Source: Magnetococcales bacterium
Lineage (GTDB): Bacteria; Pseudomonadota; Magnetococcia; Magnetococcales; JADFYX01
Assembly (NCBI GenBank): GCA_002753565.1
Contig: PEAM01000018.1
Coordinates: forward strand, 1 to 64,000
Direction of reading: 5' to 3'
Length of the DNA: 64,000 nucleotides
Below the pieces are notes generated by a model. That model did no database searches and was not told where the DNA came from. It worked only from the letters and a program-made list of their open reading frames with translations. Both the position numbers and the translations under genes were made by a program. Positions 32,680-44,102 of this stretch are shown in pieces. Position 1 is the stretch's first letter, and each line of letters opens with the position of its first letter.

Positions 32680-34911
32680 ATGGAAATAAAGCTGCAAAAA
32701 TTCCTCTGGATGGTCATGCTCTTTGCACTACCAGGAGTTGGTTGGGGGGGCAATAACCTCCATCAACCGTTTCTTGCTGCCCTGCAAAAAGCGCTCACTT
32801 TCAATCCAGAGATTCTTGCCGCACAGGATCAACTTGCCATCCAGCAGGAAAAACTGGGACTGGCTCAAGTGGAGCTGCTCCCCGACCTATCCCTGAACCT
32901 CTCGGCTAAATACAATCAAGATGAGTGGAAGGGAGGAAAAAGCAGTCGTACTCCGGCTACCCTCTCTGTTTCACTCTCCCAGCCCCTGATCGATTTCAAC
33001 CAATGGCGCAGCATAGACAACGCCCACCTTCCCATCAAAAAAGCTGAAATGGATCTGCTGATCTCTACAGAAAACCTTTTTTTTAAAGTGGTGGAGGAGA
33101 CAGTGGCTATTTTGCAGGCCAAAGAGGTCTTGCAACGGTCTCAAAGCAATCTAGCCCTTACCCAAGAACACTTGAGAGCCACCCGATTACGGTTTGATGC
33201 AGGAGAGCTGACCCAGACCGATATCAGTCAGGCAGAGTCTCGTGTGGCCTCCATTCAAGCTGAGTTGATCTCCACACACAATCAGATCAAGATGAGCATG
33301 GCCCGCTTTGAAGAGATTACCGGCATACCGGCCCCAGCCAATTTATCCATCCCTTCAGTCTTACCTGCCGTACTCCATCATCTGGAACAATCCCCCATTC
33401 ACCAGGTAGCCCTGCGACCCGATGTCGCCTCTGCCCTGATTCAGTTGGAGGAGTCTCGCCGCAATATCGATATCCAACGGGGGGGGATGTTACCAGTATT
33501 AACCCTTACTTCGGACGCCTCCCGTACCTGGCATTCCGATAGCAGCAGCCGTCCCGGTGCCAACAGCGCCCTCAATGTCAGCCTGGGGCTGACCATGCCT
33601 ATTGATGCCAGAGGAAAATATTCTCGCAAGGGTCGCCAAGCCATGTGGGAGCGGGATGAAAAGTTGGCAAAACTGGACCAGGTCAGGCAACAGGCGATCC
33701 GAGAGGTCAAACATGCCTTGCTGGGGCTCTCTTCGGCCAGGGCCAGAGATAAAGCCCTCAAGCAGGTTGAGCAGGCTGCCAAGATGGCGCTAAGCGGGGT
33801 GGAGAAGGAGTTTACGGTGGGAACCCGAAGCTCCCCCGATCTGCTCAGCGCACAGAACGAACTGTTCGAAGCTCAAAGGGACCTGACCAAAAGCCACTAT
33901 GACCTGATTCTAGAACAGTATAAACTGCTCAAAGCCAAAGGCCAGTTGACCCTCTCCAAACCGGTGTTCGATCTGAACCCACAACCACAAGCGCCCAACA
34001 ACCAGCCGGCCATGGCCCAACACAACCCCGCCAACACCCAATATGGCCGGGTATTAAACCAGGCTCTCAATCAAAATTGGAGTGGTCACCCCCCCCACGC
34101 CAACCTCCAGAACCATCCAACCCCCACATCATCCACCAGACCGGGACTCTCCAACAAGGCTGCGCTCCCCCCTTCTGCTTCGAACCCCTTGCCCCCCATG
34201 CCGAACAAAATAGAAGAGATGGACTCCTTTTCACAGGCCATCCAACCTGAAACGGTCCAACCTCTTCCTCAACCACAGGCTCAAGGTGGTGGTGGCTCAC
34301 TTTATGCTCAGTCCAACATTCAGGCTATCCCTGCCCATCATCCTGGCCTTATCATCCGGGTAGCCAGCTTTCCCAAGCCAGCCGAAGCCATTGCCGAGCA
34401 GTTGGCAAGACATCTGGTCTCTGACCAGTTTTCTGTTATTAAAACAGCGGAGATGATCCAAGGCTCCCCCTATATCCATATCTTGAGCGGCCCTTTTGCC
34501 CACCAGGATGAGGCAGAGAGGGTCAAACAGATTCTTCAACAGGTCTACCATGCCCAGCCCTTGATCGAAAACTGGAATCCACAGGCTGCTGCCCTCCACC
34601 CCACCCCACCTCCCATGGTCCAAACAGCCTCAACCGTGCAGCCAGTGGCACACAACATCTATAGCGCATCCCAACAGCCACTCCCCGAGCCATCCCTGCA
34701 AGAAGGCATGATGATGCAACCCAAGGAGCAGCCCCAAGAGCAGCCTTTCGACCCCTCCTTTCTAACCGCTCCCCTCTCATCAAACCAGCCTCTGGCAAAG
34801 GAGTTGACAAAGGATAAACCAATCCCAGAACCTGTGGTGGTCGCCAAGGAGCGGGTTATCGTGACGGAATCGGGGATAAAAATTGGGGTGGGAAGAGTAC
34901 GGAAGAGGTGA
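32680..34911 (+). CDS. TolC-family outer-membrane efflux protein with C-terminal SPOR-like domain
   Basis: The 743-residue protein is much longer than TolC (about 470-495). A signal peptide (ending near GVGWGGN) is followed by the two TolC repeats. Features include AALQKALTFNPEILAAQDQLAIQQEKLGLAQVELLP at about residues 28-63, LRFDAGELTQTDISQAESRV and VGTRSSPDLLSAQNELFEAQRDL. After residue 430 come about 120 Pro/Asn/Gln-rich residues. A SPOR-like domain then spans about 550-630 (IIRVASFPKPAEAIAEQLARHL and YIHILSGPFAHQDEAERVKQIL), followed by a second disordered stretch. SPOR domains bind denuded septal peptidoglycan glycan, so this export channel may be placed at division sites. It completes the type I secretion set. 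Confidence 0.85.
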   Translation: MEIKLQKFLWMVMLFALPGVGWGGNNLHQPFLAALQKALTFNPEILAAQDQLAIQQEKLGLAQVELLPDLSLNLSAKYNQDEWKGGKSSRTPATLSVSLSQPLIDFNQWRSIDNAHLPIKKAEMDLLISTENLFFKVVEETVAILQAKEVLQRSQSNLALTQEHLRATRLRFDAGELTQTDISQAESRVASIQAELISTHNQIKMSMARFEEITGIPAPANLSIPSVLPAVLHHLEQSPIHQVALRPDVASALIQLEESRRNIDIQRGGMLPVLTLTSDASRTWHSDSSSRPGANSALNVSLGLTMPIDARGKYSRKGRQAMWERDEKLAKLDQVRQQAIREVKHALLGLSSARARDKALKQVEQAAKMALSGVEKEFTVGTRSSPDLLSAQNELFEAQRDLTKSHYDLILEQYKLLKAKGQLTLSKPVFDLNPQPQAPNNQPAMAQHNPANTQYGRVLNQALNQNWSGHPPHANLQNHPTPTSSTRPGLSNKAALPPSASNPLPPMPNKIEEMDSFSQAIQPETVQPLPQPQAQGGGGSLYAQSNIQAIPAHHPGLIIRVASFPKPAEAIAEQLARHLVSDQFSVIKTAEMIQGSPYIHILSGPFAHQDEAERVKQILQQVYHAQPLIENWNPQAAALHPTPPPMVQTASTVQPVAHNIYSASQQPLPEPSLQEGMMMQPKEQPQEQPFDPSFLTAPLSSNQPLAKELTKDKPIPEPVVVAKERVIVTESGIKIGVGRVRKR

Positions 34912-34933: not shown

Positions 34934-35035
34934 TTAGACCATTAGAATAGAGATTATTTCTGAGAGAGCAAAAAGAGCCATCAGACCTAAAACCCCCAAC
35001 TCCAGCAGAATGGCATATTTAATAAAGGAGATCAT
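34934..35035 (-). CDS. 33-residue membrane micropeptide A, phasin-linked
   Basis: The peptide begins MISFIKYAILLELGVLG and ends LSEIISILMV. It is a single hydrophobic helix with one acidic residue at position 12 (ELG) and another at 26 (SE). AGGAG lies 6 bases before this ATG; an ATG one codon earlier has poorer spacing. A paralogue at 43259-43360 has the same length and aligns without gaps: MISF-K-AI-LELG--L-ALFAL-E--S-L are identical columns. Both lie downstream of a phasin gene on the same strand. Conservation at the protein level with different codons indicates a real gene. The function is unknown; it should sit in the cytoplasmic membrane or at the granule surface. Confidence 0.72.
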   Translation of the reverse strand: MISFIKYAILLELGVLGLMALFALSEIISILMV

Positions 35036-35093
35036 CATCAGCTCCTATTATCAGGTTTTTTAAAAAGAGTGTGTGTCAAACAAATCTCTCAGC

Positions 35094-35153
35094 TAACAGG
35101 GCCAGGTCTCTTGAATCACAAGTATTCAAAAGCAACCTGTTTAAACCCTGTTA
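35094..35153 (-). other. Conserved hairpin between phasin A and micropeptide A
   Basis: TAACAGGG (35094-35101) pairs with CCCTGTTA (35146-35153). Inside are CAGGT with ACCTG and TTGAAT with ATTCAA. The equivalent structure at 43447-43505 has TAGCAGGG/CCCTGCTA, a compensatory A-T to G-C change. A 21-base block (35136-35156) matches 43488-43508 at 19 positions. It may terminate, stabilise or process the phasin transcript ahead of the micropeptide. Confidence 0.55.
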
Positions 35154-35173
35154 TCTGACAGATACGTTTACAA

Positions 35174-35530
35174 TCAGACCGAGGAAGCCTTGGCTTTGGC
35201 CATCAACGCGTCAGTTTCAGTTTTAAGCAGTGCTTCCAATTGTGTGCGGCTTTGGTCTAGAATAGCCATATTCTCTTTAGCTTGAGCCACAATGCTCTCA
35301 CCGATCTCATTCACAATCTTCAGCTGTGCAGCGGCTGCATCGGTGGGGTTCTTGATCTGAGCCAGCTCCTGCAGTTGGCGGCTGGAGTTGGAGATCAATC
35401 CCTCAACACCGCTGAGTTGTTGATTAACCAAGGATTGAACGGCATCATTGTTAATCTTTTGAAGATTACTGACGGTACTGAGAATCTGATTGCTGATTCC
35501 GTTAAACTGTTCGGCAAAATTGTTGGTCAT
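35174..35530 (-). CDS. Phasin family protein A (PHA granule-associated)
   Basis: The 118-residue protein is all-helical and amphipathic with the phasin_2 pattern. It starts NNFAEQFNGISNQILSTVSNLQKINNDAVQSLV, has RQLQELAQIKNPTDAAAAQ in the middle and a C-terminal LDQSRTQLEALLKTETDALMAKAK. It has no Cys or Trp. Phasins coat polyhydroxyalkanoate granules and control their number and size. ATG at 35530 is preceded by GGAG at 9 bases; an in-frame start 45 bases earlier would run through the operator. It has a paralogue at 43533-43892. Two TGC-N3-GCA sites lie upstream (35562-35589), consistent with control by a PhaR-like repressor. No PHA synthase is in the window. Confidence 0.82.
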   Translation of the reverse strand: MTNNFAEQFNGISNQILSTVSNLQKINNDAVQSLVNQQLSGVEGLISNSSRQLQELAQIKNPTDAAAAQLKIVNEIGESIVAQAKENMAILDQSRTQLEALLKTETDALMAKAKASSV

Positions 35531-35557
35531 TTCGATGTGCTCCAGTATTGAATAAGT

Positions 35558-35593
35558 TATGCTGCACTGCAGCAATTGTTGCGGTGCAGCATA
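35558..35593. promoter_or_regulatory. PhaR-like operator upstream of phasin A
   Basis: Perfect arms TATGCTGCAC and GTGCAGCATA flank the near-palindrome GCAGCAATTGTTGC (35569-35582). Within it are two TGC-N3-GCA units, CTGCACTGCAG (35562-35572) and TTGCGGTGCAG (35579-35589), 17 bases apart. The same core and spacing occur before phasin B. Known PhaR sites in PHA-producing proteobacteria are TGC/GCA-rich and of this type. Confidence 0.65.
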
Positions 35594-35744
35594 GAGCTAT
35601 CTTTAGCACGAGTCAACCTCTTTTTTCACTTAGGGATAAAAAAAACAAAAAAGGTCTCACCACGACTGCTGTTGACGATCTACCAATACCTATGGTTTCC
35701 TCTTGGCTTTGTGGACAAACGAAACAGAGTGGTCAGACGAAACA

Positions 35745-42885: not shown

Positions 42886-43258
42886 ATCTCACCTTGGCTC
42901 CCTAAAGCCTCTATAGCACAAGCCGCTTAGGACACAACGGCCCTCTTCTTGCGCAGACAACCGTCCTAAACATAAAAAAAATTTTGCCGTACAAATTAAT
43001 TCTTATCCTGGGATAAGTTCATTAAATCAGCACCATATTTCCTTAAACCATGGTGAATAGGAAAGTCAACGCTTTATCTTTGTGTAGAACTTTATCAGTA
43101 TACGCTAATTATCTAGGTAAAAGGGGGGTAGGTCGGGGTGGAAAAGAGCATCAGGCCAAGTAAGGAAAGCGATGGTCTGGCAACGGTAAGAGGGTGAAAA
43201 ACAAAAAAAACGTTAAAAATGGGAACAGGGCAAAAAAAGCAGAGACCAGCCTCTGCTT
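42886..43258. other. Upstream region of the suc operon
   Basis: The 373-base region holds the suc promoter and has two notable repeats. CTTATCC-TG-GGATAAG (43002-43017) is a perfect-armed palindrome 117 bases before sucA, a candidate operator. TTAGGAC (42927-42933) and GTCCTAA (42963-42969) are the arms of a hairpin in the 5' leader. The left half of the suc leader is GC-rich and the 43020-43110 part is AT-rich. I see no gene. Confidence 0.45.
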
Positions 43259-43360
43259 TCAGGCCAGTAGCAGCGAGACCATTTCGTGGAGGGCAAACAG
43301 AGCCAGTAGGGATACGGCTCCCAATTCGAGAACAATCGCTATTTTAAGAAAAGAGATCAT
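43259..43360 (-). CDS. 33-residue membrane micropeptide B, phasin-linked
   Basis: The peptide begins MISFLKIAIVLELGAVS and ends HEMVSLLLA. It is the paralogue of micropeptide A (34934-35035), of identical length. Shared residues include MISF, Lys6, Ala8-Ile9, LELG at 11-14, ALFAL at 20-24 and Glu26. GAG lies 11 bases before the ATG, a weak ribosome site. It follows phasin B by 172 bases on the same strand, the same arrangement as copy A (138 bases). Synonymous differences outnumber replacements in the LELG and ALFAL segments, which supports coding constraint. Confidence 0.7.
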   Translation of the reverse strand: MISFLKIAIVLELGAVSLLALFALHEMVSLLLA

Positions 43361-43446
43361 TGTTATCGCTCAATAGTTAGGGTGAAACAGTTACCAACTA
43401 TGACCAAACATCAACCATTCAGTTCCCAAAAAGGTAAAAAAACCAA

Positions 43447-43505
43447 TAGCAGGGTCGGGCATCTTGGCACGAAACGCGACAAAACACCCTGTTAAAACCC
43501 TGCTA
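43447..43505 (-). other. Conserved hairpin between phasin B and micropeptide B
   Basis: TAGCAGGG (43447-43454) pairs with CCCTGCTA (43498-43505); the stem extends to 10 pairs with ATAGCAGGGT (43446-43455) and ACCCTGCTAT (43497-43506). Copy A has TAACAGGG/CCCTGTTA at the same place relative to its phasin, with almost equal loop length (about 43 versus 44 bases). The changed base pair is compensatory. Confidence 0.55.
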
Positions 43506-43532
43506 TCTCTCAATCCTCTTCAGTAAGGGGGG

Positions 43533-43892
43533 TCAAATCGTGGTTTGACTGGCTTTTCTGACCAAGGATTTCATTTCACTCTTATACAGATAGTCCAACT
43601 GGTCCCGACTCTCGTCTAGAATGGCGAGGCTACCCTTGGTTTGGGCCAGGGCATTTTCACCCATCTCGTTAAAAATTCGAACCTGAGTTGCTATGACCTC
43701 TTGGGTAGTTGGAGATTGCGCCAACTCCATCAAGTGACGGCTGGAGTTGACCACGAAATCTTCAATGCCATGAATCTGCTGGCTGACCAGGGACTCAACT
43801 GTCTGGCTGCTGATTTTTTGCATGTTATTGAGTGCTTTTAAATATTGGCTGCTCATTCCAGAAAAGGTTTCCATATAGTTATGATGATTCAT
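43533..43892 (-). CDS. Phasin family protein B (PHA granule-associated)
   Basis: The 119-residue protein is a paralogue of phasin A. The shared pattern is (L)NNMQKI---(T)VESLVSQQ--GIE-(F)-(V)NSSR-L-ELAQ in the first half and IFNEMGENALAQTKGSLAILDESRDQLDYL in the second. It is helical and amphipathic throughout. ATG at 43892 is chosen because GGAG lies 6 bases upstream; a longer frame runs on upstream through the operator and is not credible. The gene diverges from selO. Two TGC-N3-GCA sites lie upstream at 43925-43952 with the same 17-base spacing as in copy A, so both phasins are probably co-regulated. Confidence 0.82.
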   Translation of the reverse strand: MNHHNYMETFSGMSSQYLKALNNMQKISSQTVESLVSQQIHGIEDFVVNSSRHLMELAQSPTTQEVIATQVRIFNEMGENALAQTKGSLAILDESRDQLDYLYKSEMKSLVRKASQTTI

Positions 43893-43923: not shown

Positions 43924-43953
43924 ATTGCACCGCAGCAATTGTTGCAGTGCAAT
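43924..43953. promoter_or_regulatory. PhaR-like operator upstream of phasin B
   Basis: ATTGCAC and GTGCAAT flank GCAGCAATTGTTGC (43932-43945), identical to the 14-base core before phasin A. The two TGC-N3-GCA units are TTGCACCGCAG (43925-43935) and TTGCAGTGCAA (43942-43952), 17 bases apart. It lies 32 bases before the phasin ATG and 150 bases before selO, so it could affect both. Confidence 0.65.
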
Positions 43954-44102
43954 ATAATCCTCCTGATAACCACCGTCAACCCTTTTTTTCTATACCCCAT
44001 CAAAAAAACAGTAAGCCCTTTGGCTGGCCGTTCCATCAAAAAAATGAGCCTTTCACTCTTTAGAACGCTCCATTTGGCGATAAAACCGGTTATAGTGAGC
44101 TG

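Follow-up and report, generated by a model that had tools for sequence, protein, structure and literature searches.

Two phasin genes in a 64,000-nucleotide stretch of a Magnetococcales genome (the window) each have behind them, on the same strand, an open reading frame (ORF) of 33 codons for a hydrophobic peptide, and the two peptides are paralogues of equal length. We read each phasin–peptide pair as a PhaR-controlled, lineage-specific two-gene module, the second gene of which would make a single-pass membrane microprotein during polyester storage, probably binding a larger membrane protein; we put the probability of this reading at about one half.

The window is part of contig C81 of a genome of 3.87 Mb in 92 contigs. 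On its minus strand, phasin B (43533..43892, 119 aa) and micropeptide B (43259..43360, 33 aa) lie upstream of sucA, sucB and lpd (names assigned by eye from the sequence). Phasin A (35174..35530, 118 aa) and micropeptide A (34934..35035) lie further along, also on the minus strand, with peptide A tail to tail with a TolC-like gene. This neighbouring outer-membrane efflux ORF (32680–34911) has an unusually long C-terminal extension, which is proline-/glutamine-rich and includes a SPOR-like stretch as judged by eye.

Both phasins belong to the Phasin_2 family (PF09361, gathering score 24.9), phasin A with an E value of 6e-12 (46.1 bits) and phasin B with an E value of about 5e-7 (4.6e-7, 30.4 bits); phasin A also matches TIGR01841 (E 5.7e-7), slightly below the cut-off of that model. 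They are 45% identical and come out as sisters in a maximum-likelihood tree (support 99/87), within a clade that includes phasins of the congeners G008 and G010 (support 100/99), the position of phasin B being less sure because of its long branch. In the second phasin of G010 (L049, G010:C72:2650-2994) the match contains one TAA, which probably falls at the extreme end.

The two copies share a sigma-70-like promoter of the form TTGACN-17-TATNNT, found by promoter scan on the minus strand at 35588..35616 (TTGACT-17-TATGCT) for phasin A and at 43951..43979 (TTGACG-17-TATATT) for phasin B. Its −10 end runs into TGCACNGCAACAATTGCTGCNGTGCA, and by eye the phasin promoter is conserved in the congeners. 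Operator A (35557..35594, minus strand), an inverted repeat made of a paired TGCNNNGCA, overlaps the −10 element; this palindrome is a hairpin-forming element and falls inside the interval (34934–35594) marked in an earlier note on this DNA. Operator B, also a paired TGCNNNGCA, lies at 43926..43951 on the minus strand. When the whole genome was scanned, the paired pattern TGCNNNGCA-N6-8-TGCNNNGCA occurred at five places, three of which are the promoters of phasins A, B and C; one of the other two lies upstream of an arsR-type gene, and the last differs in composition and has no apparent connection with a phasin. Across the order, one or two TGCNNNGCA sites precede most phasins, about 40–75 bases before the start.

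This pattern resembles operators that have been described before. A TGC-N3-GCA-type operator has been reported for R. sphaeroides PhaR and H. seropedicae PhbF (PMC3206438), the sites being CTGC-N3-GCAG for PhaR and TG-N-TGC-N3-GCAA for PhbF (PMC3206438; also PMC12542648). The main PHA locus of this genome, on contig C79 (L048:107-3350), consists of an acetoacetyl-CoA-reductase-like SDR gene, phaR, phasin C and phaE. Here phaR, which has both of its Pfam domains (PHB_acc_N 2.5e-27), stands just upstream of phasin C, and phaE, encoding a class III synthase subunit, stands downstream. A peptide gene behind phasin C as well was considered and rejected, as phaE follows that phasin. The genome carries a TGC-N3-GCA operator at the promoters of phasins A, B and C together with a phaR gene, the two features expected of a PhaR regulon. 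Since the shared operator matches the published site and phaR lies beside phasin C, control of phasins A and B by PhaR is well supported as an inference.

The arsR-type regulator (L104:1497-1938, contig C86) has a phasin-type promoter and a paired TGCNNNGCA operator directly upstream, which suggests that it is a member of the PhaR regulon. In the congeners G008 and G010, the phasin is flanked on one side by an O-acetylhomoserine sulfhydrylase-like gene and on the other by arsR (named by eye), whereas the arsR counterpart in the present genome, clearly alike over 95 residues, is on a different contig from the window and has the phasin-type operator straight upstream with no phasin. The congeners' arsR sits just behind a phasin with that operator, and the operator on contig C86 looks like a remnant left after the phasin moved away. 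From the operator kept without a phasin at this arsR, it appears that the phasin left its old place, came beside sucA, gained the peptide and was then duplicated, in an order of events that we infer. Phasin, promoter, hairpin and peptide were duplicated as one, and the duplication probably took place within the lineage, since the peptide is found in no other genome searched and the closest phasins of the congeners adjoin arsR without one.

The peptides are MISFIKYAILLELGVLGLMALFALSEIISILMV (A) and MISFLKIAIVLELGAVSLLALFALHEMVSLLLA (B). Aligned without a gap, their starts and stops coinciding, they have 20 of the 33 residues (61%) in common, so the equal-length paralogy and the gap-free alignment with differing codons that the earlier note had described are both borne out. 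With peptide A as query against the whole 3.87 Mb genome, peptide B is the sole match, and its E value of 1.3e-6 makes the resemblance more than chance. Peptide A may start at the ATG at 35035 (33 aa) or at an in-frame ATG one codon upstream, at 35038 (34 aa). The ideally spaced AGGAG claimed earlier holds for copy A, where it lies six bases before the ATG at 35035, but not for copy B, whose ribosome site is weak (at best GAG eight bases upstream of the ATG). The GRAVY value of the peptides is about 2.0 and the net charge of peptide A is −1. The peptide is predicted to form a single hydrophobic helix, the structure model of peptide A giving one helix over residues 2 to 32 with a mean pLDDT of 94.7, although almost any sequence of this kind would give a lone helix. 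The residues that might make contacts with a partner are a conserved glutamate within the predicted membrane span, E12, together with K6 and E26.

The codon comparison indicates that both peptides are probably real coding genes. Of the 33 codon pairs, 11 are identical, 9 are synonymous and 13 carry replacements, and the differences are distributed 10/5/16 over codon positions 1/2/3. The Nei–Gojobori method gives dN 0.293 and dS 0.853, and LWL85 gives dN 0.276 and dS 1.656, while the maximum-likelihood dS is saturated; the resulting dN/dS of about 0.17–0.34 is not near 1, the value that the earlier note had named as part of a refutation. When the observed substitutions were placed at random in peptide A, 14.4 ± 1.9 residues were kept against the 20 observed (P 0.003), the observed BLOSUM score of 102 was reached in 0 of 20,000 trials (null 53 ± 11), and a stop was gained in 39% of trials. 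Just one further frame, on the reverse strand, is free of stops in both copies, with 16 identical residues and 7 synonymous codons, fewer than in the ORF frame. At the DNA level, the copies are 69% identical over the peptide ORF against 56% over the aligned phasin codons, and the peptides are better conserved between the copies than the phasins (61% against 45%). There is thus good evidence for protein-level selection on the peptide pair, within the limit of one paralogue pair and 99 aligned bases, to which the case is confined because no homologue is found elsewhere.

The same comparison bears on the idea that there is no working protein here at all, and that the ORF is a 3′ UTR element or a decaying frame carried along by the duplication, with the RNA being what is conserved. 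The orphan status of the peptide, the conserved hairpin and the weak ribosome site of copy B would all fit, and yet the ORF frame has an excess of synonymous change and conservative replacements, and the frame is still open in both copies when more than a third of random mutants would gain a stop. Moreover, A/B likeness above the shuffled level is seen in the promoter region, the hairpin and the peptide ORF, but not in the spacer just before the ORF or in the 100 bases 3′ of the peptide. We consider such an explanation improbable.

In both copies, the stretch separating phasin from peptide forms a much more stable fold than its shuffled versions (z −5.7 for A and −4.1 for B), confirming the hairpin that had been noted as part of the unit. 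Hairpin A (35075..35160, minus strand) has an MFE of −32.5 kcal/mol and hairpin B (43430..43515, minus strand) one of −36.3 kcal/mol. By eye, they share the strand GATARCAGGGTTTWAACAGG and a closing CCCTGYTA, and the outer stem shows one A-U to G-C double change between the copies, although an alignment of two rows can reveal little about such changes. Rfam gave no match over the region, and no third copy of the hairpin or of the peptide was found in this genome. Hairpin B is followed within a few bases of its stem by seven U, and may for this reason be a partial terminator; hairpin A has no such run. A hairpin like these could set the ratio of phasin to peptide. A terminator scan also found an intrinsic-terminator-like stem at and just past the end of peptide B (43245..43268, minus strand), and the stem AAGCAGAG...CTCTGCTT with T after it is visible by eye at the same position.

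These elements can be put together as follows for the PhaR-controlled module. When polyester formation begins, PhaR would be drawn off the operator onto the granules, and the module would be derepressed. For most transcripts, trimming or termination at the hairpin would leave phasin as the product, and a minority would read through and give small amounts of the microprotein. This would insert in the inner membrane, most likely bind a larger membrane protein or complex through contacts at E12, K6 and E26, and thereby adjust a membrane function during storage. Computation shows both ORFs, the selection, the duplication, the operator motif, the hairpin and the helix; co-transcription, PhaR binding, membrane insertion, the partner and the effect belong to the proposal. 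What weighs against this reading is the orphan status of the peptide, the dependence of the selection signal on a single pair and 99 aligned bases, the weak ribosome site of copy B, and the possibility that hairpin B with its seven U ends the phasin transcript before peptide B, for which the promoter scan recognised no promoter of its own after the hairpin.

In addition to the comparison within the genome, relatives of the peptide were sought widely. No homologue was detected in the order's 47 other genomes, four of which belong to the same genus, in a 399-genome sample of the phylum, or by a pattern scan covering about 85,000 species. Single-sequence and two-row profile searches of the order, the phylum, GTDB r220 contigs, plasmids and viral contigs gave none either; since the pattern is strict and two-row profiles have limited reach at 33 residues, diverged relatives could be missed. 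The best foreign match (L092, E 0.002) was rejected as a chance hit lying antisense inside another ORF. Profile searches of Pfam, PHROGs and PDB gave no peptide match, and the sole NCBIfam match was PetN with peptide B, at chance level (13 bits against a cut-off of 56), with Pfam and NCBIfam inspected to E 10; the peptides thus match no described family. Independently of similarity to the peptide, the regions behind 68 phasins in the order's other genomes and 29 further phasins of the phylum were inspected for a small hydrophobic ORF preceded by a plausible ribosome site, and none was seen, nor was there a hydrophobic small ORF after the closest phasins, those of G008 and G010. The absence of homologues beside the phasins of related genomes, which the earlier note had named as a refuting outcome, is thus what was observed in every relative examined. 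The expectation that such peptides go with phasins generally is therefore not upheld, and the peptide looks like an orphan private to this lineage rather than a general phasin partner. As for a partnership with sucA instead of the phasin, this was rejected, as in the sole congener where sucA could be detected the gene upstream of it is ald, and no such ORF is present.

This distribution also tells against the peptide being a membrane tether or granule-surface peptide that links granules to the membrane or modulates the phasin, as the earlier note had proposed, since it is absent from every other phasin locus examined, including the closest ones of the congeners, and its portions beyond the helix are too short to bind a granule protein. 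Its duplication together with the phasin, the shared PhaR-type promoter and the hydrophobic helix are in keeping with such a role, which we nevertheless find doubtful. Also unlikely is a newly arisen membrane microprotein of one Magnetococcales lineage, drawn into its PHA regulon, acting at the interface of polyester granule and inner membrane and kept in two copies, each with its own phasin promoter.

Annotation routinely passes over genes as short as 33 codons. The peptide pair carries its own internal control: selection on a tiny gene is visible in it without orthologues, because the duplicated copies can be compared with each other. Our literature search found no small membrane protein tied to phasins, and we know of no described phasin operon with a 33-aa membrane peptide. 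Should the peptide work with the phasin, we know of no earlier case in which a phasin has a membrane-embedded micropeptide as its partner; should it not, it remains a tractable case of a young small-protein gene that a storage regulon has captured.

Among known systems, the type I toxins Ldr, TisB, Fst and TimP provide the main rival reading, in which the peptide would be a toxin-like membrane peptide whose translation is held low by structured upstream RNA, perhaps together with an antisense RNA. The resemblance lies in about 30 hydrophobic residues, a strongly structured leader, two diverged copies in one genome and a restricted distribution, such elements being often duplicated and confined to a lineage. 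However, consensus-based scans, which an antisense RNA could escape, gave no notable antisense promoter or terminator (a lenient scan of the opposite strand found three weak 8/12 sites at A and none at B). Many known type I toxins are cationic, unlike peptide A with its negative charge, and a site behind, and coupled to, a storage-protein promoter is atypical for them. We regard a toxin of this type as possible, with perhaps one chance in a handful. The phasin genes themselves are like those of PhaR regulons in their Phasin_2 family, the paired TGCNNNGCA over the promoter and phaR beside the third phasin, and unlike them in the 33-aa membrane peptide, which has a counterpart at 0 of the 97 phasin loci of other genomes. 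The genes of bacterial single-pass small membrane proteins that modulate larger membrane complexes often adjoin related genes or share their regulation. Although the peptides match no curated family and the module contains no membrane-complex gene, unlike the single-pass modulators MgtS, AcrZ, CydX and KdpF, they share with these the size range and the single hydrophobic helix.
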